DNA of 41,276 bases from Alphaproteobacteria bacterium MedPE-SWcel (GTDB taxonomy: Bacteria > Pseudomonadota > Alphaproteobacteria > Rhodobacterales > Rhodobacteraceae). Under the pieces are notes generated by a model that had not been told where the DNA came from, did not search any database, and was given only the letters and a program-made list of their open reading frames with translations. The stretch lies in the NCBI GenBank assembly GCA_001874255.1, contig MPDC01000031.1, positions 1 through 41,276 on the forward strand. Direction: 5' to 3'. The position numbers and the translations under genes were made by a program. Of the stretch, positions 12,615-41,276 are shown piece after piece (position 1 is the stretch's first letter; every line of letters begins with the position of its first letter).

Positions 12615-14762
<2,148 letters not shown>

Positions 14763-14808: not shown

Positions 14809-14961
14809 GCTCCCGCCCCGCCGTGTGCCCTGACTGCGTCAGACCCCTTTGGCGGCTTGGGCATGGCAGTCGACCCCTTTGGGGTCGACTGCGCGCCGCG
14901 CGCGCCCCTAATCCCAACCGGTTCGGTTGCGCCACTGGCGCAGCCGCGGACGGGCGGGAGC
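14809..14961. repeat. MITE/REP-like element, copy 1 (after mcm)
   Basis: Terminal inverted repeats GCTCCCGCCCC (14809-14819) and GGGCGGGAGC (14952-14961) enclose a central perfect 12-bp hairpin, GCAGTCGACCCC-TTT-GGGGTCGACTGC (14866-14892). A second palindrome TGCGCCA-C-TGGCGCA lies at 14928-14942. The ends match three other sites in the window, while the central arms are unrelated in sequence. It begins 46 bp after the mutase stop and could end its transcript. The rest of 14763-15139 holds three GGATTTTT motifs about 13 bp apart (15046-15080) and no gene. Confidence 0.7.
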
Positions 14962-15139
14962 TCGCCGGACGTGGTCCGGACACTGACAGGGGACCGATAC
15001 GCCCGGACCTTATATGCCAGGTTTTTCCGCGCCGGGTTTTGTCTTGGATTTTTGCTCTGGGATTTTTGCCAGGGATTTTTCGTTGCCTCGGTCGCTCAGC
15101 CGGTTAACTTGACCCGGTCAAACGCCGCAGGAGACCGCA

Positions 15140-15745
15140 ATGATCGCACTCGACCATTTTGCCGTGGCCGGCACCTCGCTCGAGGAGGCCAGCGCCCATG
15201 TCGAGGCGGCGCTCGGCGTGCCCCTGCAACCGGGCGGCCCGCATCAGGTCTTTGGCACGCACAATCGTCTCCTCGGTCTGGCGGAGGGGCTCTATCTGGA
15301 AGCCATCGCCATCGACCCGGCGGCAACGCCCGAACGCAGGCCGCGTTGGTTCGACCTCGACCGGTTCACCGGCGCCCCCCGCATCAGCAACTGGATCTGT
15401 CGCTGCGAGGATCTTGAAACCACGCTGGCGGGGCTGCGCCTCGATGCAGGGCAGCCGGTCGCGCTCGCCCGCGGGGATCTGCGCTGGCAGATGGCGGTTC
15501 CGGCCAGCGGGACCTTGCCGTTCGACAATTGCTGTCCCGCCCTGATGCAATGGCAAGGGCCGCATCCGGCTCCGGGACTGGCTCAGCAGGGCTGCACGTT
15601 GCGACGGCTGGTGGTTGCCCATCCCGAGGCGCTGGCCCTGCGGGATCTGCTCGCGCTGAACGAGGCCCGCGTGGTGTTTGAACCCGGCCCCGCAGCTCTG
15701 CTGGCCGAGATCGAGACGCCGCATGGGCTGCGCCACCTGACATGA
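15140..15745 (+). CDS. VOC-superfamily (glyoxalase-like) protein
   Basis: A 201-aa protein starting MIALDHFAVAGTSLEEASAH, the usual opening of the glyoxalase-like VOC family: first beta strand with LDHF, then a helix. The later FGTHNRLLGL and YLEAIAIDP segments fit the second half of the first module, and the protein continues into a second related module. Such proteins bind a metal and act on small substrates; no specific reaction can be assigned. GCAGGAG precedes the ATG. Its stop overlaps the start of the acetyltransferase gene (ATGA), inside a 15-bp repeat. Confidence 0.75.
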   Translation: MIALDHFAVAGTSLEEASAHVEAALGVPLQPGGPHQVFGTHNRLLGLAEGLYLEAIAIDPAATPERRPRWFDLDRFTGAPRISNWICRCEDLETTLAGLRLDAGQPVALARGDLRWQMAVPASGTLPFDNCCPALMQWQGPHPAPGLAQQGCTLRRLVVAHPEALALRDLLALNEARVVFEPGPAALLAEIETPHGLRHLT

Positions 15746-15805
15746 CGCCACCTGACATGACGCCGCCCGATGTGACGCTGCCCGATGTGGCGCCGCCTGA
15801 CACGT
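15731..15805. repeat. Five 15-bp units spanning a stop/start junction
   Basis: Units start at 15731, 15746, 15761, 15776 and 15791; the first two are identical (CGCCACCTGACATGA). Unit 1 holds both the stop of the VOC gene and the ATG of the acetyltransferase; unit 2 recreates an in-frame ATG at 15757. The array encodes TPPDM, TPPDV, TLPDV, APPDT, SLPEH. Confidence 0.9.
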
Positions 15806-16368
15806 CTCTGCCCGAGCACACGCCGCACAGGACAGGGCGCCCGCGCATTCGTCCGGCCCGTTCCGGCGATGCCGAGGCGATTGCGGCGCTGCATGCTGAC
15901 GGCGTGCGACATAGCCTCGCCACCTTCACCACCGTGGTGCGCACCGCCCCTGACTGGGGCGAGGACATCGGGTCCGGCCTGCCGATACTGGTCGCCGAGG
16001 ACAGCGCGTCCGGCGCATTTCTGGGCTTTGCCGCTCTCGGCGCGTTTCGCAGCGGGCCGGGCTATGCGCATACGGCAGAGCATTCGATCTACCTGACGGA
16101 GGCCGCACGGGGCCACGGCGTGGGGCGGAGCCTGTTGATCGCACTGGAAAATCTGGCCGGGTCGCGGGACATTCACGTGCTGGTGGCCGCCATCAGCGGC
16201 GCTAACCCCTCGGCGCAGGCCTTTCACGCTGCCTGTGGCTATCGCGAGGTCGCGCGGCTGCCGGAGGTCGGCTATAAATGGGGGCAGTGGCTGGATCTTG
16301 TGCTGATGCAGAAAATTCTGCGTGAGGAGGAAACAGGACGACCTGACAGCCGACCGGATCCCGGCTAA
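15742..16368 (+). CDS. GNAT family N-acetyltransferase
   Basis: A 208-aa protein whose residues from about 33 on form a GNAT fold of the phosphinothricin-acetyltransferase-like type: RIRPARSGDAEAIAALHADGV at the start (21 residues across strand 1 and helix 1, shown here only in part elsewhere), the acetyl-CoA loop RGHGVGRSLLIAL, then VAAISGANPSAQAFHAACGY. The acceptor is unknown. The first 30 residues are a Pro/Asp-rich repeat tail made by the 15-bp array, absent from typical relatives. The start overlaps the VOC stop; an equivalent ATG exists at 15757. Likely co-transcribed with the VOC gene. Confidence 0.8.
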   Translation: MTPPDMTPPDVTLPDVAPPDTSLPEHTPHRTGRPRIRPARSGDAEAIAALHADGVRHSLATFTTVVRTAPDWGEDIGSGLPILVAEDSASGAFLGFAALGAFRSGPGYAHTAEHSIYLTEAARGHGVGRSLLIALENLAGSRDIHVLVAAISGANPSAQAFHAACGYREVARLPEVGYKWGQWLDLVLMQKILREEETGRPDSRPDPG

Positions 16369-16377
16369 GATCGCCCC

Positions 16378-17085
16378 ATGTCACTCTGGTCCCGCATCAC
16401 CGAGGCGCTGTCGGCGCTGGCCACGGGCGAAAGCCTTGCGTCGGTTTTCGACCGCCTGCGCACGCCGCCCGAACGCTCCGTGGCGTTCACCATCGCGGTG
16501 ATTGCGCTGGGGGCAAAGATGGCCAAGGCCGACGGCCAGGTGACCCGCGACGAGGTGGCGGCCTTTCGCGAGGTGTTCCACATCGCCGCCGAGGATGAAC
16601 AGCAGGCCGCGCGCGTCTTTGATCTGGCCCGTCAGGACATCGCAGGCTACCGCGAATATGCCCGCCGCATCAGCACCATGTTCCGGGACGATCCGGGCAC
16701 GCTCTGCGATCTGATGGAGGGGCTGTTTCATATCGCCCTGGCGGATGGGTTCTACCACCCCAATGAAAACGCCTTCCTCGAGGAGGTCAGCCGCATGTTC
16801 GGCCAGTCCGAAGCGCAGTTCCGGTCCTTGCGCGCCCGTTTTGTCGAGGGCGCGCCGCGCGATCCCTATGAGGTGCTGGGGGTGGCGCCGGGCACGCCGC
16901 TGGAAGAGGTCCGCCGGATCTGGCGAAAGCTGGTGCGCGACAACCACCCTGACGCGATGATCGCGCGGGGGGTGCCGACCGAAGCGATCCGTCTGGCCGA
17001 AAAGCGCCTGGCGGATATCAACCGGGCCTGGGACGACATCCGCGGCGCCGCACAGGCCCGAGAACATGCGCCTGAGCACGTATAA
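16378..17085 (+). CDS. TerB-DnaJ (DjlA-like) co-chaperone
   Basis: A 235-aa soluble protein. Residues 33-150 form a TerB-type helical domain with paired acidic motifs (AKADGQVTRDEV and ALADGFYHPNEN). Residues 162-230 form a J domain, DPYEVLGVAP to the end, with the essential HPD at 190-192, so it should stimulate a DnaK-type Hsp70. It resembles E. coli DjlA but lacks its N-terminal membrane anchor, which is usual in alphaproteobacteria. It starts 9 bp after the acetyltransferase stop and overlaps the next gene by 20 bp. Confidence 0.85.
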   Translation: MSLWSRITEALSALATGESLASVFDRLRTPPERSVAFTIAVIALGAKMAKADGQVTRDEVAAFREVFHIAAEDEQQAARVFDLARQDIAGYREYARRISTMFRDDPGTLCDLMEGLFHIALADGFYHPNENAFLEEVSRMFGQSEAQFRSLRARFVEGAPRDPYEVLGVAPGTPLEEVRRIWRKLVRDNHPDAMIARGVPTEAIRLAEKRLADINRAWDDIRGAAQAREHAPEHV

Positions 17086-18148
17086 TATCGAATGGTTCGC
17101 CAATCTGTTTGATGCCCGCGACCGGCTCTTTCTCGACGGGCGGCGGTCCGGGCGTCACGGGATCAGCTGTGCCGCCCAGACCGAGGCGATCGCAACGGTG
17201 CTGCGACGGGTGGATGCCGATGCGGTCGTGGTGATCGAGGCCCCGAACACCGGCCGCCGACAGAGCACCCTGCGGGCGCTGGCGGAATTTGCCGAATGGG
17301 CGGGGCTGCGCAGCCGAGCGGCGGTGATGGGGTTTTCCAACGAGACCCAGCAGGAAATCGCCCTGCTCTACGATCCTGATGTGCTGCGTGCCGCCCATGC
17401 GCCGGTTGCCTCGTCCCGGGTGCCTGCCTTCGACGGCTGCTTTTCCATCGATCTCGACGTGGACGCGCAGGCCGACAGCGTGCGCTTTTCCAAACCGCCG
17501 ATGGAGATCAAGGTCACCCCGCACTCCGGCACCCCCTTTCGCCTGATTGGCGCGCATCTGAAATCCAAGGCGCCCCATGGCGCCCGCAGCCCGGAAGAGG
17601 CGCGGGCGCTGTCCATCTCCAACCGGCGCAAGCAGCTGGCGCAGGCGATCTGGCTGCGGGCCCGGATGTCCGAGCATCTGAGCGCGGCAGAGCCGCTGGT
17701 GGTGATGGGGGATTTGAACGACGGGCCGGGGCTCGACGAATACGAGGCGCTGTTTGGCCGCTCCTCGGTCGAGATCATTCTCGGGGCGGAGATGGCCGAC
17801 CCCCATGCGCGCTGCCTGCTGCGCCCGAACCGACAGGGGCTGCCGACCTCGGCCCGGTTTTACAACCAGATCGAAAAGCGCTATTTTCAGGCGCTTCTGG
17901 ACTATGCGATGATCTCGCCGGATCTGGCAGGCTGCGCCCCCCGCTGGCGCATCTGGCACCCGTTCGAGGACGCGGAATGCTATGGTGATCCGGACCTGCG
18001 CCGCGCGCTTCTGGAGGCGTCGGACCATTTTCCGGTCAGCCTCGATCTGGATCTCGACCTGTATCCTGGCCGCCAGTCGGAGCCGGAGGGGACCTCTCCC
18101 GGAGCGCAACCCGATGGCGCCGCCGTGGGATCTTCCGGTCGGCCCTGA
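17066..18148 (+). CDS. Endonuclease/exonuclease/phosphatase family protein
   Basis: A 360-aa metal-dependent hydrolase of the EEP fold (DNase I/sphingomyelinase-like). The active-site set is visible: Asn7 (STYNIEWF), Glu58 (VVVIEAP), His164 (IGAHLKSK), Asp216 and Asn218 (GDLND), and Asp320-His321 (SDHFPV). No signal peptide, so cytoplasmic. The substrate could be nucleic acid or a phosphoester; sequence does not decide. The start overlaps the TerB-DnaJ gene by 20 bp, suggesting translational coupling. The last 30 residues (from about 330) are low-complexity and family-atypical. Confidence 0.82.
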   Translation: MRLSTYNIEWFANLFDARDRLFLDGRRSGRHGISCAAQTEAIATVLRRVDADAVVVIEAPNTGRRQSTLRALAEFAEWAGLRSRAAVMGFSNETQQEIALLYDPDVLRAAHAPVASSRVPAFDGCFSIDLDVDAQADSVRFSKPPMEIKVTPHSGTPFRLIGAHLKSKAPHGARSPEEARALSISNRRKQLAQAIWLRARMSEHLSAAEPLVVMGDLNDGPGLDEYEALFGRSSVEIILGAEMADPHARCLLRPNRQGLPTSARFYNQIEKRYFQALLDYAMISPDLAGCAPRWRIWHPFEDAECYGDPDLRRALLEASDHFPVSLDLDLDLYPGRQSEPEGTSPGAQPDGAAVGSSGRP

Positions 18149-18242
18149 TCACGGCGCGGGCCAATGTGGCAGGGGATTGCCCCACCGGGGGCGGGCGCTA
18201 TCGTCTGTTCCAGAGATGAGCCAGAAGAGGTACACTCCGCCC

Positions 18243-18734
18243 ATGATGCAGATCTTTCGCCCTCCGTTCCGAGCCTTCGCAAAGGCGCCGCTGATTGCCG
18301 CTCTCGGTGTGCTGGGCCTCTGCGTTCTGGTGACATTCGGCTCTGCCACCGGTCTTGAGGCCGAGGGTGCGGACGACGGGTTTGAGGGCGAACCGGAGGG
18401 CAAAAGCCTGATGGAGCGCGGCGCGGATCTGTTTCTCGAAGGGCTGCGCCGCGAAATGGAGCCCGCATTGGACGAAGCGGCGCGGCTGTTGGCCGAGATC
18501 GGGCCCTCCATGCGTCGTTTTCTGGCCGAGATGGGGCCTGCCCTGGCCGAGATCGCGGAGCAGGTCGAGGACTGGAGCCTCTACGAGCGGCCCGAGGTCC
18601 TGGACAGTGGCGATATCATCATACGCCGCAAGGTCCCGGTGCCGGACGAGCATCCTCCGGGCGACATCCCTCCGGGCGAGCTGCGGGAACAGGGGGAGGG
18701 GGACGCCCCGGATGACGGCAGCATCGAACTCTGA
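18243..18734 (+). CDS. Small exported Rhodobacterales protein, function unknown
   Basis: A 163-aa protein with a signal peptide (MMQIFRPPFRAFAKAPLIAA, then a hydrophobic core ending about residue 40). The mature part is acidic and helical (SLMERGADLFLEGLRREME, LAEIGPSMRRFLAEMGP), followed by a conserved YERPEVLDSGDIIIRRK and a Pro/Glu/Asp-rich tail ending SIEL. I recall relatives in Rhodobacteraceae often mislabelled as AAA+ ATPases; there is no P-loop. The start is uncertain: ATGs at 18243, 18246 and 18216 are all in frame, with AGAGG upstream of 18243. It ends before a MITE-like repeat. Confidence 0.65.
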   Translation: MMQIFRPPFRAFAKAPLIAALGVLGLCVLVTFGSATGLEAEGADDGFEGEPEGKSLMERGADLFLEGLRREMEPALDEAARLLAEIGPSMRRFLAEMGPALAEIAEQVEDWSLYERPEVLDSGDIIIRRKVPVPDEHPPGDIPPGELREQGEGDAPDDGSIEL

Positions 18735-18824
18735 CCCGCTGACGGATCGGCAGGTCTTGCTGTAGACCTTCGGCTGCGGGACCATGGAGCTTTTGAACTC
18801 CGGCTGTCTTAGGGAGGACGGTGG

Positions 18825-18958
18825 CCCTCCCGCCCGCGCGCGGCCCTTTAAAAAGGACCTTGCGCCGTTGGGCGTGGCGCCGGACTTCGTCCGGCGCCAC
18901 GCCCAACGCTTCTGATGGTGCTCTGCGTTAGCAGAGGGCAGGAGGAAGGGGCGGGAGC
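18825..18958. repeat. MITE/REP-like element, copy 2
   Basis: Ends CTCCCGCCC (18827-18835) and GGGGCGGGAGC (18948-18958) flank a perfect 20-bp stem with a TTC loop (18866-18908, arm starting CGTTGGGCGTGGCG). A small hairpin CTCTGC-GTTA-GCAGAG follows at 18921-18936. It fills the space between the convergent exported-protein and exopolyphosphatase genes, where it could stop transcription both ways. Confidence 0.85.
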
Positions 18959-18972
18959 CTCCCCCTCCTGGC

Positions 18973-20676
18973 TCAGCCCTCGGCCATCAGGTCGCCGCGT
19001 TTGCCCTCGACCGTGACCCGGACATCTGCATCCAGCGCGTTGACAAGCGACATCAGCCGCGCCCGCGCCACCTCGCCAAACAGCGCGGTGCCGGATGTCG
19101 GCAGCTCCACATGCAGCAGCCGTTTGCGCGGTTGCCAGCGCAATGTCCCGATGTCGCGGTCCTCTCCGACCATCAGCATGGCGCCGAACCGCATGGCCTT
19201 GCCGAGGATTTCCGCCTCCTTTTGCTGTTCGGGGTCCAGCAGATCGTAGAGATGTTCGAAATGGGTGCCCTGGCGTTTGTTGCGGTAGCGATGCAGCAGC
19301 GCCAGACCGAGGAAAATACGCTCCGAATGTTTCAGCCCGCCCAGATTGGCGCGGGTGGCATTGTCGAAACAGACCTCGGCGCGGTAGTCGGGATGGGCCC
19401 GCCAGCTGACATCATGCAAAAGGCTCGCGGCCTTCACCAGCCGCATCTTGGCGTAGGGGCTGCCGGAAAACAGAGGTTTCACAAAGGCATAGAGCGTCTT
19501 GCCAAAGCCCGGCACCCGCGCGTCCTTGGCCTCGGCAAAGCGCGCGGCCTCGATCAGCGGATCCCGTTCGCGCAGCCGGTCGGGCATCTGTTCATACAGC
19601 AGCCCCTCGCGCAGACCATAGCTGGAGATGGCAATATCCTTGGGGCGAAAGGTCTTGACCAGCCGCGACAGCACATCGATCGCATAGGGCACCAAGGCCA
19701 TCCGGGTCGAGGATATCCCGCAGTCGCCGCGCAGCTTGTCGAGGTCGTTCTTCTCGATGAATTTCGCGGTTTCGCGCACGTCTTTTGCCGTCATGCGGTA
19801 TTCATGCTGCACCGTCAGCGGGTAGCTGCGCCGCAACATGTCGAGGCGCGCAATCGCCCGCCAGCTGCCACCGACCAGAAACAGCCGGTCGCGCTGATCG
19901 CCCATCTGGTCGCGCAGGGACAGCATGACCTCGTCGATGTGCTTCTTGCGACCCTGACGGCCGCCCTTGATATCCTTGAGCTTCAGCGGGCCGAGGTGCG
20001 AGGTGACGCATTTGCCGACGGTGCCGCCCTGGATCTCTGCCAGCTCCATGGACGAGCCGCCGATGTCGCAGATCAGCCCATAGGCACCGGGCCAGCCCAG
20101 CAGGACGCCCTGCGCCGACAGGCGAGCCTCTTCCTCGCCGGTGATGACCCGGATGCGCAGCCCGGTGGCCGCCTCGACCTCAGTGCAGAACTCCGGCCCG
20201 TCACTGGCATCGCGCACCGCAGCCGTGGCCACCACATGCAGCTTGTCCGGCAGGAGCCCGGCTGCGAGGGCCTGAAACCGCTGCAACGCGGCGAGGGCGC
20301 GGGCGCGCCCCTTGGGATTGAGCTTGCCGGTCTCGGACAGTCCGGCACCGAGGGCGCACATGATCTTTTCGTTGTAGAAATAGGCCGGGCTGCGCGCCGC
20401 GCCGTCAAAGATCACCAGCCGCACCGAGTTCGAGCCCACATCCACCACGCCGATCCGCTCCAGCGCGCGGGCGTCGGGGTCGTTGAACAACGGGTGGCCG
20501 AAGGGGCCCCAATCCTCTGCCGGGGCGGCGGGCTCTGTCGCGGCTGGTTGGCGGTCGGCGGGTCGGTCGGCGGGTCGGTCGGCGGGGCGGGCGGCGGCGC
20601 GGCCCTCCGCCGGATCGCTGCCGGAACTGGGGCTGCCCGGGGTGGGCTCGGTCGGGGCTTCTGGCAGGATCGTCAT
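18973..20676 (-). CDS. ppx: Exopolyphosphatase / pppGpp phosphohydrolase (Ppx/GppA)
   Basis: A 567-aa cytoplasmic phosphatase of the actin-like ASKHA superfamily that releases phosphate from polyphosphate and may also act on pppGpp. Phosphate-1 motif VDVGSNSVRLVIFD, phosphate-2 motif CDIGGSSMEL and the GLREGLLYEQ segment are present. The C-terminal half has the HD-like helical domain (ASLLHDVSW). The first 55 residues are a poorly conserved Pro/Ala/Asp-rich tail that includes three RPAD repeats from a 12-bp DNA array (20553-20588). It runs leftward and ends 14 bp from a MITE-like element. Confidence 0.92.
   Translation of the reverse strand: MTILPEAPTEPTPGSPSSGSDPAEGRAAARPADRPADRPADRQPAATEPAAPAEDWGPFGHPLFNDPDARALERIGVVDVGSNSVRLVIFDGAARSPAYFYNEKIMCALGAGLSETGKLNPKGRARALAALQRFQALAAGLLPDKLHVVATAAVRDASDGPEFCTEVEAATGLRIRVITGEEEARLSAQGVLLGWPGAYGLICDIGGSSMELAEIQGGTVGKCVTSHLGPLKLKDIKGGRQGRKKHIDEVMLSLRDQMGDQRDRLFLVGGSWRAIARLDMLRRSYPLTVQHEYRMTAKDVRETAKFIEKNDLDKLRGDCGISSTRMALVPYAIDVLSRLVKTFRPKDIAISSYGLREGLLYEQMPDRLRERDPLIEAARFAEAKDARVPGFGKTLYAFVKPLFSGSPYAKMRLVKAASLLHDVSWRAHPDYRAEVCFDNATRANLGGLKHSERIFLGLALLHRYRNKRQGTHFEHLYDLLDPEQQKEAEILGKAMRFGAMLMVGEDRDIGTLRWQPRKRLLHVELPTSGTALFGEVARARLMSLVNALDADVRVTVEGKRGDLMAEG
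20553..20588. repeat. Three 12-bp tandem units in ppx
   Basis: Units GGTCGGCGGGTC at 20553, 20565 and 20577 encode RPAD repeats (minus strand) in the disordered N-terminal tail of Ppx. Confidence 0.85.
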
Positions 20677-20789
20677 ACGGGCTCCGGACGTTTTGGCTTT
20701 GGAAAGAATGATCTATTGGCTCCGTCAGGTCAATTCAGCAGACGTGACGCCAGGCGAGGGAGGAGGGCGAGGGAGGCGCGCGCTGTGGA

Positions 20790-21557
20790 TCAGGCCTCCC
20801 GGCTCTTGGGGGTGCTGTCATCGGGGGCGCGCCCTTTGGGGGTCCGGTCTTCGGGTCTGTCGCCTTCGGATTTGCGGTCTTCGCTCTTGCGATCTTCGGC
20901 CATCATCTGGATCGCCAGCGCCCGCGACAGGGTCCGGTGCTCTGCCAGCGCCAAGCGGTCCAGCCGGTCCACCACCGCCTGTGCGGCGGCAAAGGACCGG
21001 TCCATCCGCCCCACCAGATAGGGGATCACATCGGGCTTTGGCGTGATCTGGCGGTCATTGAACAGTTTCGCCAGCACCACAGCCAGCAGCGCATCATCGG
21101 GAGGATCGAGGGCCGCATGGGTGGCCGCCTGCACCCGGCTTTGCAGATCGGCAAGCCCCAGCCCCCAGAGATTCGGCGCAGGCCGGCCGGTCATCATCAA
21201 CCGGTGGCCATGGGTCAGAACCATGTTGTGAAGGTGAAACAAGGCCTTTTGCGCGGGGCCGTCCTCGGCGATCTCGGGCACATCCTCGACCACCACCGGC
21301 CCTTTGGCCAGATCGGGCACATCCGCCTCGGTCAGGGTCTGCGCGGGGATCACCCGTGCGCCGCTGTCGCGGGCCCAGACATGCGCCAGATGGGTCTTGC
21401 CCGACCCCTTCGGACCGGTCAGTACCAGTTTCCCCGAAGGCCAGGCGAAATTCATGTCGATCAGCGCCACCGCCATGGCGTTCGACGGCGCGACAAAAAA
21501 GTCATCCCGCCCCAGCGCGGGTTTCGCCGGGAGATCAAAGCTCAGCTGTTCGGACAT
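20790..21557 (-). CDS. hdaA: DnaA-related regulator HdaA (RIDA)
   Basis: A 255-aa DnaA/Hda-family protein. The N-terminus MSEQLSFDLP holds a beta-clamp-binding motif, as in Hda, which with the clamp promotes ATP hydrolysis by DnaA and limits re-initiation. A P-loop GPKGSGKT lies at 48-55 and VVVEDVPE is the Walker B-like segment. There is no DnaA DNA-binding domain. The last 35 residues are a charged repeat tail (EDRKSEDRKSEGDRPEDR) not found in typical homologues, partly from 15-bp DNA units. It starts 11 bp after the transporter gene, so the two form an operon. Confidence 0.85.
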   Translation of the reverse strand: MSEQLSFDLPAKPALGRDDFFVAPSNAMAVALIDMNFAWPSGKLVLTGPKGSGKTHLAHVWARDSGARVIPAQTLTEADVPDLAKGPVVVEDVPEIAEDGPAQKALFHLHNMVLTHGHRLMMTGRPAPNLWGLGLADLQSRVQAATHAALDPPDDALLAVVLAKLFNDRQITPKPDVIPYLVGRMDRSFAAAQAVVDRLDRLALAEHRTLSRALAIQMMAEDRKSEDRKSEGDRPEDRTPKGRAPDDSTPKSREA

Positions 21558-21568
21558 CGTCGGTCTGC

Positions 21569-22696
21569 TTATTCCACATCTGCGCGGGACGCCGCGTCCC
21601 GGTGTGTCTGCCCCTGATAGAGACGACTGTCCAGATACTGGTCCACGGCAAAACGTGCAACCACTCCGATCGCCGCCGCCACCGGCACCGCGACCAGCAT
21701 GCCGACAAATCCGAACAGCGCGCCAAAGACCGACAGCGCCAGCAACAGCCAGACCGGATGCAGTCCGACGGAATCGCCCACCAGCTTGGGGGTGAGGAAA
21801 TTGCCTTCGACAAACTGGCCGAGAAAGAAGATCCCCGCCACCAGCGCGATGCGAATCCAGTCGGTGCCCTGGCGGATCGTCTCGCCGTCGGCGCCTTCCA
21901 GCGCGCCCCAGAACTGAAACAGCGCCAGCCCGATGGCCAGGACGCCGCCGATGATCGACCCGAGATAGGGGATGAAGGTCACCAGCCCGGCGACAAATCC
22001 GACGGCGAGGCCGAAGTTCAGCCCGACCGCCATCAGCGCCACCGCGTAATAGGTGCCGAGGATGACGCAGACCGTGCCCATGCCGCGAATGAAGGAGGAC
22101 AGCACATCGTCGATCTCGCGCGCCAGCCGCCGGATGACCGGAGCATGATCGCGCGGCAGCAACCCATCGATCCGGGCCACCATCCGGTCCCAGTCGACCA
22201 GCAGATAGACCGACACCACCGGCACGATCACGATCAGTACCACGACATTCAGCAGCGACAGGGCCGAGCCGACAAACCCCTGCAACAGGGTCACGCTCTT
22301 GTCCTGCAGCATCGTCCACAGGCCGGACAACGCCTCGTTGATCTGGCTGCGTTCCTCAAACAGCGACGGGAACCGGTCATTGGCAAAGGCGCGCAGGTTC
22401 GCCCAGGCCTGCGGCAGGGTCTGCACCAGATCGATCAGCTGATCGACCAGCATCGGAATGATCAGGAGCAGGAACAGCAGGAACATCAGCACGGCCGCGA
22501 CGGTGATCACGGCGGTCGCGCCCTCGCGGCTCAGCCCCATGCGTTCCAGCCGGTCGGCCAGCGGGTCGATCATATAGGCAATCGCGCCCCCCAGAATGAA
22601 CGGCAGCAGCACATTGCCGAGCGCCCACATCACCACGGAGAATATCACCAGGGCGAGGCCCCAGTATGTCATTTGCTTGCTGGCAGGCAGGGCCAT
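21569..22696 (-). CDS. AI-2E family transporter (PerM-like)
   Basis: A 375-aa inner-membrane protein with paired hydrophobic segments at both ends and a long central amphipathic region, the layout of the AI-2E/PerM family. Conserved features include LPFILGGAIAYMIDPLADRLER near the start (two adjoining pieces) and GLVTFIPYLGSIIGG. Members export small molecules, autoinducer-2 or act in Na+/H+ exchange; the substrate is not predictable. It lies directly upstream of hdaA in the same direction, an order I recall as common in Rhodobacteraceae. Confidence 0.85.
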   Translation of the reverse strand: MALPASKQMTYWGLALVIFSVVMWALGNVLLPFILGGAIAYMIDPLADRLERMGLSREGATAVITVAAVLMFLLFLLLIIPMLVDQLIDLVQTLPQAWANLRAFANDRFPSLFEERSQINEALSGLWTMLQDKSVTLLQGFVGSALSLLNVVVLIVIVPVVSVYLLVDWDRMVARIDGLLPRDHAPVIRRLAREIDDVLSSFIRGMGTVCVILGTYYAVALMAVGLNFGLAVGFVAGLVTFIPYLGSIIGGVLAIGLALFQFWGALEGADGETIRQGTDWIRIALVAGIFFLGQFVEGNFLTPKLVGDSVGLHPVWLLLALSVFGALFGFVGMLVAVPVAAAIGVVARFAVDQYLDSRLYQGQTHRDAASRADVE

Positions 22697-22806
22697 GAGA
22701 CAGCGACCTCGCGATGTTGCGCAGGCCGTGGGCCTGCAGGGGTGCCCCTGTGATCGCCCAAAGGTCCTTGAGTTGCAAGAGAGAGTTGCGCCGCCCCGCG
22801 GTGCGG

Positions 22807-24543
22807 CTAGCGGCGCCCGGCGGTGAGGAGCGGCGTCAGCACCCGCAGCAGATCCGGTTGACGCAGCGGTTTGGCCAGCCAGCCATCAAAGCCGGCTTCG
22901 CAGTATTCACCGGTCTGCCCGGCAAAGGTGTTGCCGGTCACCGCCAGACAGAGCGCATCCCCGGCCGTCTTGCCGCCAGACGGGGTGCCGCCGAAGTATT
23001 TTCGCAGTTTTCCAAGCACCTGGGTGCCGCTGAGCACCGGCATCTGGATATCCAGCAACAGCACATCATAGCCGGTCGCCACGGCGCGCTCATAGGCCTC
23101 GTGGCCATCCGCAGCGGCATCGACACTGGCCCCCAACTGCTCCAGCATCTTTGTCAGCACCATCCGGTTGGCGGCGCTGTCATCGGCAACCAGCACCCGC
23201 TTTCCGCGCAGCACCTGCCGCGGCGCGCTGTGGCTGCCGGGGGGGGCGGTTTCGCAGGCCTCGGTGATCGGCATCGGCAGGGTCACATGCACCGAGGTGC
23301 CCTCGCCATAGCTGCTCTCGGCGCGAATACGGCCCTGCATCAGCTCCACGATCTGCTGCACGATCGCCATCCCGAGACCGGTGCCGCCCTTGTCGCGAGC
23401 GCTGGCGACATCGGCCTGGACGAAGGGTTTGAACAGATGTTCCATCTCGCCGGGGGAAATGCCGCAGCCGCTGTCGCGGATATGGATCTGCAGCCCCTGC
23501 GCAGTGCCGCGCAGACACAGGCGGACAGAGCCCGCATCGGTGAATTTCACCGCGTTGCTCAACAGGTTGCCAATGATCTGCGCGAGGCGGAAACTGTCCC
23601 CGAGGCGCATTTCCCCCTCGGGCACATTCACGAATTTGACGTTCAGATCGACATTCTTGGCGGCGGCAGTGGCAGAGAACAGCTTGGCCATGTCATGGAT
23701 CATGTCGCGCAGATCAAAGGGGGCCGGGACCAGTTCCAGCTTGCCCGCATCGATCTTGGCAATCTCCAGCGCGTCATTGAGCAGCCGGTGAAGGTTCTGC
23801 GCAGAGCGGCTCACCGCCCGCAGCAGCTTGGCCTGTTCCTGCGGCGCGACCACTGGTGTCGGCCCCCCCTGCATCAGCAGGTCGACGGACCCGATGATGG
23901 CGTTCAGCGGCGTGCGGATTTCATGGCTCATATGGGCGAGACAGGATTTGCGCGCCTCCGCGTCCTGGCGGGCCTGCGCCTCGTCCATGCGGGCCTTGCG
24001 GATGGCATGTTTGGAGAGAATGCGGTGGTCCACACAACAGGCGATCTGGCGCAGGGTCTGCAGATCGTCATCGCTCCATTCGCGGGGGCTTTGGTCGAGA
24101 ACACAGAAGGCGCCGATGGCGGTGCCGTCGGGCAAATGCACCGGCACGCCGAGGCAGGCCGGGGCGGCGCCAGTACCCGTATCTGTATCTGTTCCAGTAC
24201 CGGCTGCGCTCTGTGCCGCAAGCAGGCTCGGCAGCAGAGCCGAGACGTGAGGCTGGGTGATCCGGACTGCGTCGCCGGTGGCCTGGATATGGGCGCAGAC
24301 AACCTGCATCAGGGCCATATTCTGCAGGTCTGGGTCCCCTGCGGCGGTGCCGGTTCTGCTCTTGCAGGCCATGCCGCCCTCGCTGCGCGACGCGAAGGAC
24401 AGGATTGCCGCCTCAGCCCGTAAAACGCGGGCTGCGAGGTCGGTCAATGTGTCAAATGCCGGCTCGGCGTCCGCCTCCAGGAGCCCAAGCTCCCGGGTCT
24501 GAACATCAATAGCATCTGGTTTCAGCGTGACTGCATGGTTCAT
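22807..24543 (-). CDS. Hybrid sensor histidine kinase with GAF-like domain
   Basis: A 578-aa soluble hybrid kinase. Residues 25-165 look like a GAF sensor domain (CLGVPVHLPDGTAIGAFCVLD) with a Thr/Asp/Gly microsatellite insertion at about 115-127. The HisKA domain has His207 (LAHMSHEIRTPLNAI). The ATPase domain has the N box (GNLLSNAVKFTD) and G boxes (DSGCGISPGEM, GGTGLGMAIV). The C-terminal receiver has acceptor Asp498 (LLLDIQMPVLSG). There is no membrane segment, so the signal is probably cytoplasmic. No response regulator lies nearby. An in-frame TTG at 24570 is possible, but ATG 24543 is preferred; neither has a good ribosome site. Confidence 0.88.
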   Translation of the reverse strand: MNHAVTLKPDAIDVQTRELGLLEADAEPAFDTLTDLAARVLRAEAAILSFASRSEGGMACKSRTGTAAGDPDLQNMALMQVVCAHIQATGDAVRITQPHVSALLPSLLAAQSAAGTGTDTDTGTGAAPACLGVPVHLPDGTAIGAFCVLDQSPREWSDDDLQTLRQIACCVDHRILSKHAIRKARMDEAQARQDAEARKSCLAHMSHEIRTPLNAIIGSVDLLMQGGPTPVVAPQEQAKLLRAVSRSAQNLHRLLNDALEIAKIDAGKLELVPAPFDLRDMIHDMAKLFSATAAAKNVDLNVKFVNVPEGEMRLGDSFRLAQIIGNLLSNAVKFTDAGSVRLCLRGTAQGLQIHIRDSGCGISPGEMEHLFKPFVQADVASARDKGGTGLGMAIVQQIVELMQGRIRAESSYGEGTSVHVTLPMPITEACETAPPGSHSAPRQVLRGKRVLVADDSAANRMVLTKMLEQLGASVDAAADGHEAYERAVATGYDVLLLDIQMPVLSGTQVLGKLRKYFGGTPSGGKTAGDALCLAVTGNTFAGQTGEYCEAGFDGWLAKPLRQPDLLRVLTPLLTAGRR

Positions 24544-24916
24544 GGGACAACTGGATCTATGAAAGTTCAAAAAGGGTCGAATTAAGGTCGTATCGGCTTA
24601 TGTTTGCATCGGCTCATGATCGCATCGGCATATGGTTGCGTTGGTATAGTCATGGCTGCGCGACACCTGTGCCGCGCTGGCTTCATTCCATTCATTGAAT
24701 ACTCAAATTTCCAGCCAATGTGTCAAAAAACTGTGTTGAATTTAAGGCAGTTTGAGAGTGCTTTGCGGAGCTTTATTGCCTGCTTTGCGGGTGTAACCCG
24801 CCGGGGCGGACCAAGGCTATGGGATAGACCGCCTTTTTCCTATTTCCCGCCAATCGGCCCGGCCAGACGCCTGAAAACGCCGGTTTCCTGATGAGAAATT
24901 GGGCAGGCGGGATGGC
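24544..24916. other. 373-bp intergenic region with 16-bp repeats
   Basis: Between the oxidoreductase stop and the kinase start. It holds three 16-bp tandem units (24590-24637, pattern GCATCGGCNNATGNTT) and an AT-richer stretch around 24690-24780, a plausible place for the kinase promoter. No gene or RNA is evident. Confidence 0.55.
24590..24637. repeat. Three 16-bp tandem units upstream of the histidine kinase
   Basis: Units at 24590, 24606 and 24622 share GCATCGGC then ATG; a weak fourth follows at 24638. They lie 47-95 bp upstream of the kinase ATG, within a likely leader or promoter. Confidence 0.8.
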
Positions 24917-26281
24917 TCAGGTGAACCGCACGCCCTGTCGTTTCAGTTCGTCCTGCACCTGCGAGATCGCCACCGCATCAAGCGCACATCCCGCCTTGAC
25001 CGAGAGCGCCGCCGCAATGCCCGCGCCCTGGCCCGCGACGGCGCAGCAGGCCATGTTCCGGGTTGCCGCATGGGCGATCCGGTCGCCGCCGATGGCCCGG
25101 CCGGTGACCAGCAGACCCTCGATTTGTTGCGGCAGCATGGCGCGATATGGGATCTGCATGTAGCGCCCGGTGGTTGGCAGGATCAGCACGCCGTAGCCGT
25201 CGATGAACTCCGGGTAGATGCCGATGCTGTCCTCGAAGCGGCCCTGCTCGCGGGCATCCGCCTCGGTCATGTTGTACTGCGCATCGAGCTTGCGGGTGTC
25301 GCGGATGCCGATGGTCATGCCGAAGTTGCGCAGCCGGGCGCCATCGCAGCCGGGGGTATAAGCCTTGAGCGCGTTGATCGCATGCATCGCCTGTTTGCGG
25401 CCCTCGATTTCAAAGCGGGTCATGCTGTCCGGGTCGGTGCCGTCGCAGCCCGCCAGATGCACCAGGTTCATATAGGTCATCTCGCCCGAGTCGTGCACCG
25501 CGCCCCAGGTGCCGCCGATGGTGTTGAGATGCGCCGGGATCAGCCCGTCCTTCAGCGCCTGCGCAAAGGGTTTGGCAAGGAAGGGCGAGAACATGTCGTC
25601 CTCCTTGCCCGAGGTCTCCACCTGCCATTCGCCCGTCGACCAGTCCTTGTAGGTCTGGGGGTCGGCCTTGACGCCCTCCATGAACCGCTGCTTGTCGACG
25701 CCTGCGATGTGGAACATGACGCTGGCGGCCTGCATCTCCTCGACCGGAGTCTTGATCGTCGGCGCGCCCATCATCCGGGCAATGTCCGCGTCGCCGGTGG
25801 CGTCGATCACCCGTTTCGCCAGGATCGCCTCGCGGCCCGCCTTTGATTCCACGATCACCCCGGTGATCCGGTTGCCCTCGCGGATCGGGGCCACATACAT
25901 GCGGTGCAGCATCGGGTGGATGCCTGCCTCCTCAACCAGCGTGTCGGCCACCAGTTTGAACCCTTCGGCGTCCAGCTCGTAGGACAGCGACTGGCTTTCG
26001 GGCGTGGCCGCGTCCATCGCCCTGGCGCGCTCCTCGAATTCCCAGCCGATGCCGCCGGCCTCGACCGTTTCCTCATGGCGATACCAGGCAAAGCCCTCGA
26101 CGCCGACGGTGGTGATATTGCCGCCGAAACAGCCGAACCGCTCCAGCAGTGTCACCCCGACGCCGCTGCGGGCCGCCGCCAGCGCCGCAGCCAGCCCGCC
26201 GGGGCCGGAGCCGACCACCAGCACGTCGGTTTGGTGAATGACGTCAATGTCACGCGCGGGTTCGGTGATCGTGTGGCTCAT
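24917..26281 (-). CDS. FAD-dependent oxidoreductase
   Basis: A 454-aa flavoprotein with an N-terminal Rossmann dinucleotide-binding motif GSGPGG at 24-29, then GVTLLERFGCFGGNITTVG, typical of the FAD_oxidored family (PF12831-type). Further conserved pieces are VIDATGDADIARM and, at the C-terminus, LLVTGRAIGGDRIAHAATRNM, which closes the FAD site. Members oxidise diverse small substrates; none can be named. No signal peptide. CGGAG lies upstream of the ATG and a TGAACC-GT-GGTTCA palindrome 44 bp further on. It stands alone as a transcript, divergent from proS. Confidence 0.85.
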   Translation of the reverse strand: MSHTITEPARDIDVIHQTDVLVVGSGPGGLAAALAAARSGVGVTLLERFGCFGGNITTVGVEGFAWYRHEETVEAGGIGWEFEERARAMDAATPESQSLSYELDAEGFKLVADTLVEEAGIHPMLHRMYVAPIREGNRITGVIVESKAGREAILAKRVIDATGDADIARMMGAPTIKTPVEEMQAASVMFHIAGVDKQRFMEGVKADPQTYKDWSTGEWQVETSGKEDDMFSPFLAKPFAQALKDGLIPAHLNTIGGTWGAVHDSGEMTYMNLVHLAGCDGTDPDSMTRFEIEGRKQAMHAINALKAYTPGCDGARLRNFGMTIGIRDTRKLDAQYNMTEADAREQGRFEDSIGIYPEFIDGYGVLILPTTGRYMQIPYRAMLPQQIEGLLVTGRAIGGDRIAHAATRNMACCAVAGQGAGIAAALSVKAGCALDAVAISQVQDELKRQGVRFT

Positions 26282-26324
26282 CTGCGCTGGCTCCGAAGCA
26301 AATTTGAGCCACGATGCGAAATCC

Positions 26325-26338
26325 TGAACCGTGGTTCA
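26325..26338. promoter_or_regulatory. Palindrome between FAD oxidoreductase and proS
   Basis: A perfect TGAACC-GT-GGTTCA dyad lies 44 bp upstream of the oxidoreductase start and about 200 bp upstream of proS. Size and place suit a repressor operator for the leftward gene; no regulator is adjacent. Confidence 0.35.
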
Positions 26339-26544
26339 AGTCTTGAATGAGGCGACGGCGATTGCGGGGACCCTGGCTGGCTGGGGGCGTGGTGGGGGCA
26401 AGGCGGGGGCGATGGGGGCGAGGTGGTAAGCTGGTGGGGCCTTGGGCGGGACGGGAGGCCATGGCGGAACGGATCTCGGCTCTTGTCTGACCCAGCCACA
26501 CCTTCTACACCGGGCCAAACCGAATTTTACCGCACGGAGCCAAA

Positions 26545-27900
26545 ATGCGCCTGTCCCGCTATTTCCTGCCTGTCCTCAAGGAAACCCCTTCCGAGGCTCA
26601 GGTCGTCAGCCACCGCTACATGCTGCGCGCCGGCATGATCAAACAATCCGCCGCCGGGATCTATTCCTGGCTGCCGCTGGGGTTTCGGGTGCTGAAAAAG
26701 ATCGAAGGCATCGTGCATGAGGAACAGATGCGCGCGGGTCATATCCCGATGCTGATGCCGACCATCCAGTCGGCGGATCTGTGGCGCGAGTCCGGGCGCT
26801 ATGACGCCTATGGCGAGGAAATGCTGCGCATCACGGACCGCCACGACCGCGACATGCTGTTCACCCCCACCGCCGAAGAGCTGATCACGGATGTGTTCCG
26901 CGCCAATGTCAGCAGCTACAAGGACCTGCCGCTGACCATGTATCAGATCCAGTGGAAGTTCCGCGACGAGATCCGCCCACGCTTTGGCGTGATGCGGGGG
27001 CGGGAATTCTACATGAAGGACGGCTATAATTTCGACCTCAGCAAAGAAGACGCGCTGCATGCCTACAACCGCCATCTGGTGAGCTATCTGCGCACCTATG
27101 AACGCATGGGCCTGCAGGCGATCCCGATGCGTGCGGACGGTGGTCCGATCGGCGGCGACTACACCCATGAATTCCTGGTGCTGGCCGAAACCGGCGAGTC
27201 GGAGGTGTTTTATGACAGCGCCGTCACCGACCTGACCTTTGGCGACCGCGACATCGATTACGACGATGTGGCGCAGTGTCAGGCGATCCTGGAGGAGTTC
27301 ACCTCGAAATATGCCCGCACCGACGAGACCCATGATGCGGCTCTGTTCGAGGCGGTGCCCGAGGATCGCCGCCGGGTGGCGCGCGGCATCGAGGTGGGGC
27401 AGATCTTCTATTTCGGAACCAAGTATTCCGAGGCACTGAACGCCACCGTGCAGACCGGCGATGGCGCGTCGGTACCGGTGCATATGGGCTCGCACGGGAT
27501 TGGCGTATCGCGTCTTCTGGGTGCCATCATCGAGGCCAGTCATGACGACAAGGGCATCATCTGGCCCGAGGGGGTCACGCCGTTCCATTGCGGGATCGTC
27601 AATCTGAAGCAGGGCGACGATGAGGCTGATGCCGCCTGCGAGCAGCTCTATGCTGCGCTCACCGCGATCGGGCTGGAGCCGCTCTATGATGACCGCAAGG
27701 AGCGGGCCGGTGCCAAGTTTGCGGGCATGGATCTGATCGGTCTGCCCTGGCGGATCACGGTGGGGCCGCGGGGGTTGAAGAATGGCGTGGTCGAACTGAC
27801 CTCGCGCCGGACGGGAGAGAGCGAAGAGCTGAGCCCGGAAGAGGCGGTGAAGAAGATCGCCGCCATATACGCCGCACATCCGACGCCGCGCGGGTTCTGA
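26545..27900 (+). CDS. proS: Prolyl-tRNA synthetase, short alphaproteobacterial form
   Basis: A 451-aa class II aminoacyl-tRNA synthetase that charges tRNA-Pro. Motif 2 is seen as [20 protein letters not shown] and motif 3 as [14 protein letters not shown]. The anticodon-binding domain occupies the last 100 residues ([20 protein letters not shown]). It lacks the 180-residue editing insertion of E. coli ProS, as expected for alphaproteobacteria. ACGGAG precedes the ATG. A MITE-like element begins 39 bp after the stop and may end the transcript. Confidence 0.95.
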
Positions 27901-27938
27901 GCGCCCGGGGAAGGCGATGGGGTTCGGCGATGGGGGCT

Positions 27939-28083
27939 GCTCCCGCCGGTCCTGCGGGCACAGGGTGCCCTGGTCCCGTTGGGCCTTGCGGGTTGGGGGT
28001 GGCGCCGGGCCTATGGCCCGGCGCCACCCCCAACGCCTTTTCGGCGTTTTGCCTTCGGCAAAACACCAAAAGGGGGCGGGAGC
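27939..28083. repeat. MITE/REP-like element, copy 3 (after proS)
   Basis: Ends GCTCCCGCC (27939-27947) and GGGGCGGGAGC (28073-28083) flank a perfect 20-bp stem with a TAT loop (27992-28034, arm starting GTTGGGGGTGGCG). Its arms differ from copy 2 by paired, compensating changes. Two more hairpins follow, AACGCC-TTTTC-GGCGTT (28032-28048) and GTTTTGCC-TTC-GGCAAAAC (28046-28064), which overlap and are mutually exclusive. Confidence 0.85.
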
Positions 28084-28288
28084 GCACCGCTGTGCCCCGT
28101 GCACGCGGGTCGGGCGGAAGCTTTGGGTCGGGGGATATCGGACCTCCGGGAACAGACGTCGGGCAGGTTGCCGTTTGGGATCACAGATGTTGGGTCAGAA
28201 CGGGCGGGGGCGCGGACGTGGGGGCGGGAACGTCTCGATTGGGACCGCATCCTGCTGTGTCCCGGGACTGGGTTGAAGGAGCAGAGCC

Positions 28289-28810
28289 ATGATATCGCGC
28301 GTGATCTCTCTCTTGGCTGGGCTCTGCACCGGCGCGGGTCTGTCCCAGTTTCCCGCCTATGCGCAGGCCTATTTGCAGCGGTTGGGCGGTCATGTGGATG
28401 CGCTGCGCCGCGTCGTGGCGGCGTTCGACGCGGATGCCGCCGCAGTGGGGCTGGAGCGCCATTCGGCCCTGGTGCAACTGGCCCGCTCGGGCGAAATCGG
28501 CGCAGAGCGGGCCGCGACCATGGCCGCCACCATCGACCGCTACGAACGGCTTGCCGCGGATCTGCACCAGCTGGCGGCGCTGTCTCCGGTGGAGCGCGCC
28601 CTGCATCTGCACCGTTTTGCAGAAACTGACATCGCTGCGGCCACCCTCCGGGCGTTTGAGCCTGCGGTTCCGGTCACGGCCGATGCGCTGCTGTTGACCG
28701 GAGCGGGGATGATCCTGGGCGCCGGGGTGATCCGGGGCCTGGTTGGATTGCTCCGGCGCGGTTCTGCCCGTATCCGCCGCCGTCGCAGCCGCCGCGACCG
28801 GCTTGCTTGA
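28289..28810 (+). CDS. DUF2937 family membrane protein
   Basis: A 173-aa protein that fits DUF2937 as I know it: an N-terminal hydrophobic stretch with GAGLSQFPAYAQAYLQRLGG, a helical soluble middle (FDADAAAVGLERHSALVQL), and a second hydrophobic segment near the end (LLLTGAGMILGAGVIRGLV) followed by a very basic tail. Inner-membrane hairpin topology with the middle in the periplasm is likely. AAGGAG precedes the ATG by 8 bp. Function unknown; it lies 90 bp upstream of lolC. Confidence 0.78.
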   Translation: MISRVISLLAGLCTGAGLSQFPAYAQAYLQRLGGHVDALRRVVAAFDADAAAVGLERHSALVQLARSGEIGAERAATMAATIDRYERLAADLHQLAALSPVERALHLHRFAETDIAAATLRAFEPAVPVTADALLLTGAGMILGAGVIRGLVGLLRRGSARIRRRRSRRDRLA

Positions 28811-28900
28811 CCGCCTCGTCGCCCGCGCCTAGGGTCCGCCCGATGCCTCGCTCCTCCCGCGCCGGATCGGTTCCGCGCTCCGCATAGAAAGAACACCTGC

Positions 28901-36855: not shown

Positions 36856-37041
36856 GGTCAGTTGAGGCCAGTTGTGGCCTGTGTGGGGGGGGCGTGGCCT
36901 GTGTGGAAGAGCTGTGTCCGCAGGGGTGTGGCCTGCAGCGGGATGGCCCCTCTGCCGGGGATCGGCGTCAGGCTGCCGGGGGCGCTGCGCGTCGATATGG
37001 AGACTTGAGAGGCGGCGGCTGTCGCAGTAGGAGTCAGAGCC

Positions 37042-37701: not shown

Positions 37702-37702
37702 G

Positions 37703-38824: not shown

Positions 38825-38842
38825 CGGGCCTGCGGGATCGCC

Positions 38843-38955
38843 GTCAGGCCGCAGGGTCGGGGGGGCAGGGTCGGGGGGCTGAGTCAGGCCGCAGGGACAG
38901 GGGTCAGGCCGCAGGAACAGGGGTCAGGGTCAGGGGGCTCGCTCAGGGGGCTCGC
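38843..38955. repeat. Degenerate GTCAGG-rich tandem repeats before the MATE gene
   Basis: GTCAGGCCGCAGGG occurs at 38843 and 38883, and in modified form at 38903, with a clear 20-bp period in 38883-38922; two GGGGGCTCGC(T/A) units follow. Intergenic between the NicO and MATE genes. Confidence 0.65.
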
Positions 38956-39082
38956 AATGTCCGATCTTGCCAAATTGACGATTCATTTCTGCTGAAACCT
39001 TGTGCAATTGTATCGGTACGCAAAGCCGACTTGTCGCCACCTGCAACGCGGCCTAAGGGCTTTGGGACAAGGAGACCGTGTG

Positions 39083-40504: not shown

Positions 40505-40614
40505 GGCTGTGGGCGCGCCCGGTTGGGGACGGGATGTTGGGGGCGCCCGGTTGAGTGCGCCAGATTGGGGCGAGAGCTCGCCTGGGCCAGACTGGGCGCG
40601 CGAGGGGGGCGGGG

Positions 40615-41019
40615 TCAGTTGCCTTTGGTCAGCCGGTCGGCCTTTTTGCGCACCAGCACATTGCGCAGATCATGCATCGCCAGCAGCAGCGCGTCTGTCA
40701 CATCGTCAAGCTGCGCGTCGGTGGCGCGGGATTGGGCCCACTGCGTGGTGAGGTTCAGGTGATCCACCGTGCGCAGGATATCGTCGACCTCTCGGTGGGC
40801 CAGCAGGTCGGAACGGTCCGCCATCCAGCGGTCGATGGCTGCCCGGTCCTCCGCGCTGAGCAGCCGGTCGCCATGGGGTTTGACCTCTCCTTTGCGCAGG
40901 TTGATGATCGCGATCTGGTCCATCTCGATGCGGCGGTTGCGGTTTTCGCTGTCGATCCGAAACACCAGCGCGCCGTTCTCGCGGATGCGGAAGTAGTAGT
41001 CTGGCAGGGTGGTGGTCAT
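40615..41019 (-). CDS. Conserved hypothetical protein, 134 aa
   Basis: A soluble protein starting MTTTLPDYYFRIRENGALVF, chosen because AGGATT lies just upstream; an in-frame ATG at 41217 lacks support. The N-terminal half looks like beta strands (FRIDSENRNRRIEMDQIAII) and the C-terminal half is helical (DAQLDDVTDALLLAMHDLR). No named domain known to me; similar small genes occur in Roseobacter genomes. Convergent with the MATE gene across 110 bp of GGCGC-rich DNA. Confidence 0.7.
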   Translation of the reverse strand: MTTTLPDYYFRIRENGALVFRIDSENRNRRIEMDQIAIINLRKGEVKPHGDRLLSAEDRAAIDRWMADRSDLLAHREVDDILRTVDHLNLTTQWAQSRATDAQLDDVTDALLLAMHDLRNVLVRKKADRLTKGN

Positions 41020-41199
41020 GGAAATCCTATTCAGATCAGGTGTTTGAAATGGGGGGTGATCGGGTGCGGGATCACAGGTGCGATCAGAGGCCGGATCACA
41101 GTCTGGATTTCGGGCAGGGTAGCAGGCTGAAGGCCGGTGGCAAGAATTATAGAAGTGCAGGGCGCGGGCGGCAGAGGGAAGTCTCGACGTTCCGGTGGT

Positions 41200-41276
41200 G
41201 CTCCCGCCCATTTGCACCGCCCGCCTTTGGCGCGCATCACAAATTGGTTGGGCCGGGCGGGGGCCGCGCCTGAAAG
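41200..41276. repeat. MITE/REP-like element, copy 4, cut by window edge
   Basis: GCTCCCGCCC at 41200-41209 is followed 38 bp later by GTTGGGCCGGGCGGGGGCC (41247 on), the same end-to-hairpin spacing and arm start as copies 2 and 3. The second arm lies outside the window. Confidence 0.6.

Follow-up and report, generated by a model that had tools for sequence, protein, structure and literature searches.

A dispersed family of structured palindromic elements at gene 3' ends in a Roseobacter-group bacterium

The stretch of 41,276 bp from Alphaproteobacteria bacterium MedPE-SWcel analysed here (the window), which is the whole of contig C25 in a genome of 54 contigs and 4.08 Mb (G000), carries four copies of an intergenic palindromic element built from a half-element of about 80 nt. 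The element is repeated throughout the genome, keeps its structure by paired changes, lies at gene 3' ends and is shared with relatives at orthologous positions, and in the pairs compared its constraint was on a par with that of coding DNA. We propose, with a probability of about one half, that it represents a Roseobacteraceae family of structured two-way 3'-end elements that is kept by selection and turns over slowly. Among the matches listed, the best ones of the window's exopolyphosphatase were from Tritonibacter, Phaeobacter and Leisingera, and the host is therefore a Roseobacter-group bacterium.

The half-element consists, in order, of hairpin A, a strand CC(A/C)(C/G)GCCCAAC, hairpin B and the end GGGCGGGAGC, and its GCCC and GGGC can pair around hairpin B. 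The motif CGTC (on the opposite strand) stood beside hairpin B in 15 of the 34 half-elements of an alignment, A1, on which a covariance model, R1, was built. Searched against the window alone, R1 gave seven matches (E 1.3e-8 to 0.083), six of which were both halves of three complete copies on opposite strands, while the seventh was a copy cut by the contig end. A complete element is therefore two related half-elements arranged head to head, with a length of 124-227 bp among full-length matches; many half-elements elsewhere in the genome are single and unpaired with a second half. The copies in the window are as follows.

14809..14961, no strand assigned: copy 1, complete element 3' of the methylmalonyl-CoA mutase gene; two-hairpin form, with the 3' arm of the second hairpin deleted
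14866..14892, no strand assigned: central hairpin of copy 1, AGTCGACCCC-TTT-GGGGTCGACT
18826..18958, no strand assigned: copy 2, complete element with convergent genes on either side (an open reading frame (ORF) ending at 18734 and ppx ending at 18973)
18866..18908, no strand assigned: central hairpin of copy 2, perfect over 20 bp
27939..28083, no strand assigned: copy 3, complete element with proS on one side and a DUF2937 gene on the other
27992..28034, no strand assigned: central hairpin of copy 3, perfect over 20 bp
41200..41276, minus strand: copy 4, single half-element, truncated within hairpin A where the contig ends

On either strand, copies 2 and 3 formed a closed cloverleaf in which a long central arm stands between a left and a right arm. 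As had been noticed initially, the 20-bp central arms of these two copies are perfect and differ from each other by paired changes, which was seen directly. The z scores of RNA folding on the two strands were -5.3 and -3.8 for copy 1 (14811-14959), -9.2 and -9.4 for copy 2, and -7.9 and -10.0 for copy 3, and the fold of each complete copy beat 200 shuffles on both strands. In the complete copies of the window, the terminal inverted repeats described in the initial annotation pair as an outer stem, CTCCCGCC/GGCGGGAG, which single halves lack; however, the ends are less exact than had been stated, since copy 1 has one mismatch at its right end against the end sequence given there and copy 2 begins with an inexact CCTCCCGCCC (copy 3 begins with GCTCCCGCCGG). 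With up to one mismatch, GCTCCCGCCCC occurred at 13 places in the window compared with 4.57 +/- 2.17 in shuffled sequences, none of 100 shuffles reaching 13; five of these places were ends of the described elements and eight lay elsewhere. The fold of copy 1 was less regular than those of copies 2 and 3. Its arm had been taken as unrelated to the others, but the orthologous element of G009, the closest relative found (exopolyphosphatase identity 96%), is the two-hairpin form of the family with an extra intact hairpin, and the window copy has lost one arm (a 22-nt gap). Comparison of the central hairpin of copy 1 with the G009 locus (L207) also revealed a paired change, with TTT in one loop and AAA in the other and the arms still paired, as an inversion of the hairpin would produce.

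The number of half-elements in the genome was determined using R1. At least 73 matches were obtained at E <= 1, at least 58 at E <= 0.01 and at least 52 at E <= 0.001, so the four-copy family first described was too small. All 18 genomes of the genus, own genome included, carried between at least 7 and at least 75 matches each (E <= 0.001). In the family, at least 19 of 149 genera, again including the own one, had matches at E <= 1e-4, and in the class matches were found in at least 1 of 190 genomes, that one being the own genome. These counts are lower bounds, as up to 150 candidates per genome were scored for the own genome and genus, 31 for the family and 24 for the class, with stricter filters in the family and class searches; in one family genome all 31 scored candidates matched. 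An exact pattern with both ends found three matches per strand in the own genome, all of them in the window (reversed control, one per strand), and was discarded as too strict to define the family. The single end GGGCGGGAGC occurred at 51 places compared with 36 for its reversed control, a weak signal when taken alone. Half-elements matched 10 plasmid records, all from Leisingera, Tritonibacter or Ruegeria, and no annotated feature lay under the half-element in the eight annotated records with a match; the match in the Ruegeria sp. TM1040 plasmid, for example, lies between two tandem genes. Copy 2 with its flanks gave no match in plasmids, and the half-element gave none in phage sequences. No Rfam family scored above its gathering cut-off in the window or in eight element-bearing loci.

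The own genome has 108 contig ends, and a half-element match lay no more than about 15 bp away from at least 12 of them (C3, C16, C25, C27, C30, C32, C39, both ends of C40, C42, C45 and C47), and a thirteenth, on C23, was seen in a separate view of the sequence. The number expected was 0.16, and the probability of 10 or more is 1.4e-15. Because contig ends sit in elements, the true copy number must be higher, and assemblies hide or cut copies. The breaks fall inside hairpin A, and several of them share a GCGCGGCCCCCGCC core.

The pairing in the 34 half-elements of A1 was then scored on a structure predicted by RNAalifold from A1 itself. The data showed that 85.5% of cells were paired compared with 71.2% in shuffled alignments, that 95 cells had changed on both sides compared with 34.1, and that the covariation score was 0.379 compared with 0.146; on none of the three measures was any of 500 shuffles as high. 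When the partner column was shifted by 1 to 3, at most 47.8% of cells were paired. The invariance of GCCCAAC and GGGCGGGAG is partly built in, as 33 of the 34 rows were gathered by a pattern that requires them. Stem changes were also counted in 20 element pairs between G000 and G009 (20 of 24 matched loci, with the fold predicted on the G000 sequence). Stems had changed at 44 of 1010 sites (4.4%) and unpaired bases at 93 of 571 (16.3%), and 10 of 505 stem pairs had changed on both sides compared with 1.0 expected, seven of the ten still pairing. The genome matches and paired changes bear out the original view that these palindromes form a family dispersed between genes and that their structure is kept above arm sequence.

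The conservation of the element was investigated by comparison with G009. Among the 30 best G009 matches, 24 lay on DNA orthologous to an element locus of G000. In 19 of these 24 loci, the element showed 91.0% identity across 1507 bases and 0.3% gaps, compared with 68.4% over 5544 bases and 9.2% gaps for the rest of the same intergenic regions, 88.9% over 44,593 bases for coding DNA, and 78.0% over 6863 bases outside genes and the element's own intergenic region. The element was more alike than its own intergenic surroundings in all 19 pairs. Copy 3, placed by synteny, was nearly unchanged in G009 between scrambled flanks. Six of the 30 G009 matches remain. G000 has the DNA around one of them (C54:38270) but lacks the element there, and the flank of another maps to the beginning of G000 contig C37, a place at which GGGCGGGAGC is found; for the last four, which represent three elements, nothing corresponding was present in the G000 DNA examined. 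In the other direction, G009 lacks a degenerate half that G000 carries at C6:23173, and of the element at G000 C37:19588 it retains only a left-end-like remnant.

Occupation of the window sites was also followed in further relatives (loci designated by L-numbers). The site of copy 1, between the mutase gene and a glyoxalase gene, carried an element at 7 of 70 mutase ends in named loci (L064, L065, L070, L072, L081, L089 and L109). It was occupied in 8 of 13 same-genus relatives that have both flanking genes, two of which appear to be the L064 and L065 genomes, and a ninth gave a weak match (E 0.3). At L109:19047-19547 (Ruegeria), two near-identical complete elements stand in tandem about 420 bp apart, 3' of the mutase gene, and this pair is a local duplication. 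The site of copy 3 was occupied in L064, L065 and L084 with the same central hairpin, and in Tritonibacter mobilis this hairpin has a paired change from G-C to A-T. At the site of copy 2, G009 has only a remnant and no element was present in the Tritonibacter relatives read there, but elements were found between the same gene pair in L094 and L098. Such differences in presence or absence by site indicate that elements are gained or lost at single sites, while the family persists. Many relatives, but not every one, thus have the hairpins at orthologous sites, and these hairpins are without a U-run, so the picture of ordinary terminators shared by every relative fits only in part.

The gene context of the elements was determined for 49 of the 58 own matches at E <= 0.01, nine second or contig-end halves having been dropped and a two-half element on C6 being counted twice. 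Twenty-four lay between convergent genes, 22 between tandem genes and none between divergent genes; one of the remaining three overlapped a predicted ORF, and two at contig ends were left unclassed. The absence of divergent sites (0 of 46) has P = 1.6e-4 given the divergent share of intergenic bases in the same element loci, from which the orientation background was taken; gene calls came from a script that scores codon usage, with 14 genes of the window as its training set. The placement at gene 3' ends on either strand, as first remarked for the window copies, is thus a property of the genome-wide set. Three copies had initially been placed directly after stop codons; within the window, the measured distance from element to stop codon was 46 bp for copy 1, 91 bp and 14 bp for copy 2, and 38 bp for copy 3. 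The neighbouring genes are listed below; the name proS for the synthetase gene is a reading of its PF00587 and PF03129 domains.

12615..14762, plus strand: methylmalonyl-CoA mutase gene (PF01642), upstream of copy 1
18973..20676, minus strand: exopolyphosphatase gene (Ppx-GppA), convergent neighbour of copy 2
26545..27900, plus strand: class II aminoacyl-tRNA synthetase gene (PF00587 and PF03129), upstream of copy 3
28289..28810, plus strand: DUF2937 gene, downstream of copy 3

From the sequence data we infer that the element acts in the transcript, in termination or RNA processing. RNA entering from either side would fold up in the element, and the folded element would limit read-through and/or fix and protect the mRNA 3' end; candidate routes are pausing or a Rho-dependent stop, cutting of the long arms by RNase III, and blocking of 3' exonucleases. 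New copies would arise rarely. The role of two-way terminator proposed in the initial annotation is plausible, if unproven. The conserved core also suggests a putative specific binding partner. It is a tentative and rather doubtful extension that these Roseobacteraceae have a lineage-specific gene-end system, in which a dedicated factor binds the GCCCAAC/GGGCGGGAGC cloverleaf RNA core and determines where two converging transcripts end, replacing U-tailed terminators at many genes. Intergenic palindromic repeats have mostly been viewed as selfish or as passive 3' protectors, and here gene-like constraint was found in the pairs compared. The half-element family holds its position between species while its arms change in pairs, which makes its function testable at dozens of natural sites, and near relatives supply natural contrasts of presence and absence. 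The elements also break assemblies and lie under no annotation in the matched plasmid records.

Several results weigh against the proposal of selected two-way 3'-end elements. Only elements detected in both G000 and G009 entered the 19 or 20 pairs, a choice that is biased towards conserved copies. In A1, 12 pairs showed a change in both partners compared with 10.3 in shuffles, and 41 of 500 shuffles were as high, so this measure is weak; the covariation term of RNAalifold was small (-0.46 kcal/mol). In the G009 comparison, 24 of 505 stem pairs had changed on one side only, 13 of them breaking the pair. In the gene context, convergent sites were mixed in half-element orientation, and tandem single halves had the GGGCGGGAGC end toward the upstream stop in 11 of 15 cases, too few to establish orientation; elements might be missing from divergent regions simply because they would damage promoters there. 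The hairpins of copies 1 to 3 are not followed by a U-run, and at three sites in 80 named loci T-tailed hairpins occurred in 2 of 10 regions with an element and 40 of 211 without. The idea that elements replace U-tailed terminators was rejected, as there was no exclusion over these 221 regions; the U-tailed hairpins at some relatives' mutase ends are persuasive singly but not in the overall count. A scan of 14000-29000 found no terminator-like site inside copies 1 to 3 and two on the plus strand 3' of copy 1, at 15032 and 15055. In the own genome, a strict T-tailed scan gave 0 of 43 element-bearing and 0 of 87 other intergenic regions, and with no hit anywhere it did not discriminate.

Spread as a miniature inverted-repeat transposable element (MITE), as suggested in the initial annotation, would mean a non-autonomous element moved in trans by a DDE-type transposase acting at GCTCCCGCCC/GGGCGGGAGC ends. 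The terminal inverted repeats, the size, the tens of dispersed intergenic copies and the presence/absence differences among near relatives agree with this, and in the genome G211 there are numerous 86-bp copies that are almost the same in sequence, are frequently attached to a second repeat and look recently multiplied; copying can therefore occur. However, no target duplication was found in 33 full-length matches (32 elements, one being listed twice; nine from G000, nine from G009, one from G211, five from named relatives and nine from other genus genomes, with copies 2 and 3 included and copy 1 unmatched by the pattern). The mean longest word shared by the flanks was 4.12, 4.18 and 4.27 at three offsets, compared with 3.98-4.00 (standard deviation 0.15-0.17) for shuffled partners, the real value being 1.9 standard deviations above at the largest offset. 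No transposase was found between the widely spaced head-to-head halves on C29, the one own-genome pair examined, which flank elongation-factor-P-like and cobyric-acid-synthase-like genes (assigned by reading ORFs), and an autonomous copy there was ruled out on these ordinary genes. In addition, many halves are single, and most of the compared copies are orthologous and constrained. Together with the absence of a Y1 gene from the own genome, these results make a MITE improbable. Multiplication as a repetitive extragenic palindrome (REP) or its paired form, REPIN, by a REP-associated (Y1) tyrosine transposase (RAYT) is a still slimmer prospect. Inverted palindromic pairs at gene ends do resemble REPINs and bacterial interspersed mosaic elements (BIMEs), CGTC stands beside hairpin B in a share of the halves, and Y1_Tnp was found in G009 (one gene, C44:2881-3240) and G008 (four matches). 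But no Y1_Tnp gene was found in the own genome, nor in 16 of the 18 genus genomes, including the two with at least 74 and at least 75 element matches; the consensus lacks GTAG, and each unit comprises two hairpins in about 80 nt and is thus longer than 20-40 bp. A RAYT origin was rejected on this absence of Y1_Tnp, although the nearest relative has one gene; an ancestral RAYT, later lost, is possible as the origin.

A site acting at the DNA level, where a cruciform or the core, lying between converging genes, binds a chromosome protein such as a topoisomerase, a nucleoid protein or a specific factor and might absorb supercoiling, for instance, has a real but minor chance of being correct. The complete copies are strand-symmetric, convergent ends are preferred, the core is conserved, and the copies also fold as single-stranded DNA (z -4.8, -9.2 and -8.0 for copies 1, 2 and 3). 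Many single halves are asymmetric, however, and 22 of the 46 classed sites lie between tandem genes; the present results are compatible with a function in DNA or RNA alike. We give little credence to the elements being neutral hairpin debris whose arms are kept perfect, in the absence of selection, by template switching in replication. The perfect arms and the TTT/AAA loop swap in copy 1 would be accounted for, but template switching makes paired changes and does not slow change, and the element is as identical as coding DNA where its intergenic surroundings have diverged, even though the selection of detected pairs inflates this somewhat.

REP and BIME units of enteric bacteria and REPINs of Pseudomonas are intergenic palindromic units, often in inverted pairs, that lie at gene 3' ends in tens or more per genome, and the present family resembles them in its dispersed intergenic palindromes, inverted pairs, gene 3' ends and tens of copies. 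It differs from these 20-40-bp palindromes in its longer half-element of two hairpins with a linking strand and no GTAG in the consensus, in the lack of a Y1 gene from most genomes of the genus, and in the constraint measured here at shared orthologous positions. Nemis/Correia elements of Neisseria are about 100-160 bp long with terminal inverted repeats, and are co-transcribed and processed by RNase III, with TA target duplications; our elements are similar in size and terminal inverted repeats, whereas Nemis differ in the TA duplications and in sequence, and RNase III is here a proposal. RIME and mosaic elements of rhizobia and ERIC/RU elements are intergenic palindromic mosaics of about 100-200 bp, a likeness in kind and size that was set beside the half-element family by description only. 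Integron attC sites carry the motifs GTTRRRY/RYYYAAC, and attC was dropped as a candidate on the ground that GTTGGGC...GCCCAAC is similar but in reverse order. GTAG and CGTC REPs are described in PMC3733652. According to that paper, alphaproteobacterial CGTC REPs are single hairpins of 20-40 bp whose stems start with AT and which mostly have a CCA tail; they are like the present elements in their host class, their dimers, the lack of a dedicated transposase and the CGTC of 15 of the 34 halves, but CGTC is variable here, the architecture is different, and neither an AT start nor a CCA tail was seen by eye in our alignment. The words Roseobacter, Rhodobacter, Ruegeria and Silicibacter are absent from the main text of PMC3733652. 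Other RNA motifs of Rhodobacterales are treated in PMC2864571 and PMC8632094. No published account of the half-element family was recognised in the literature searched, which covered few subscription papers, and one may be in print elsewhere; apparently the family is undescribed, REP/BIME-like yet distinct, and a member of neither REP nor MITE.

A second dispersed repeat was also noticed by eye. It consists of a GGGGGCGCTGCCCCC hairpin followed by CACCCCCGGAGTATTT..AAGAGATGAA and is often fused to a half-element. It was seen in most of loci L175-L189 (G211), just 5' of the half-element, and in G000 near C17:41605, C5:48671 and C52:19457. The composite of half-element and second repeat in G211 looks like a recent multiplication. 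The window makes up 1% of the genome, and 6 of the 73 half-element matches fall in it, between 14809 and 41276 (7 when it was searched alone); this local excess may be only the reason why the window drew notice. Locus L077, titled Nocardioides marinus, has Roseobacter-type gene order and an exopolyphosphatase that is 77% identical, and its organism name looks wrong.

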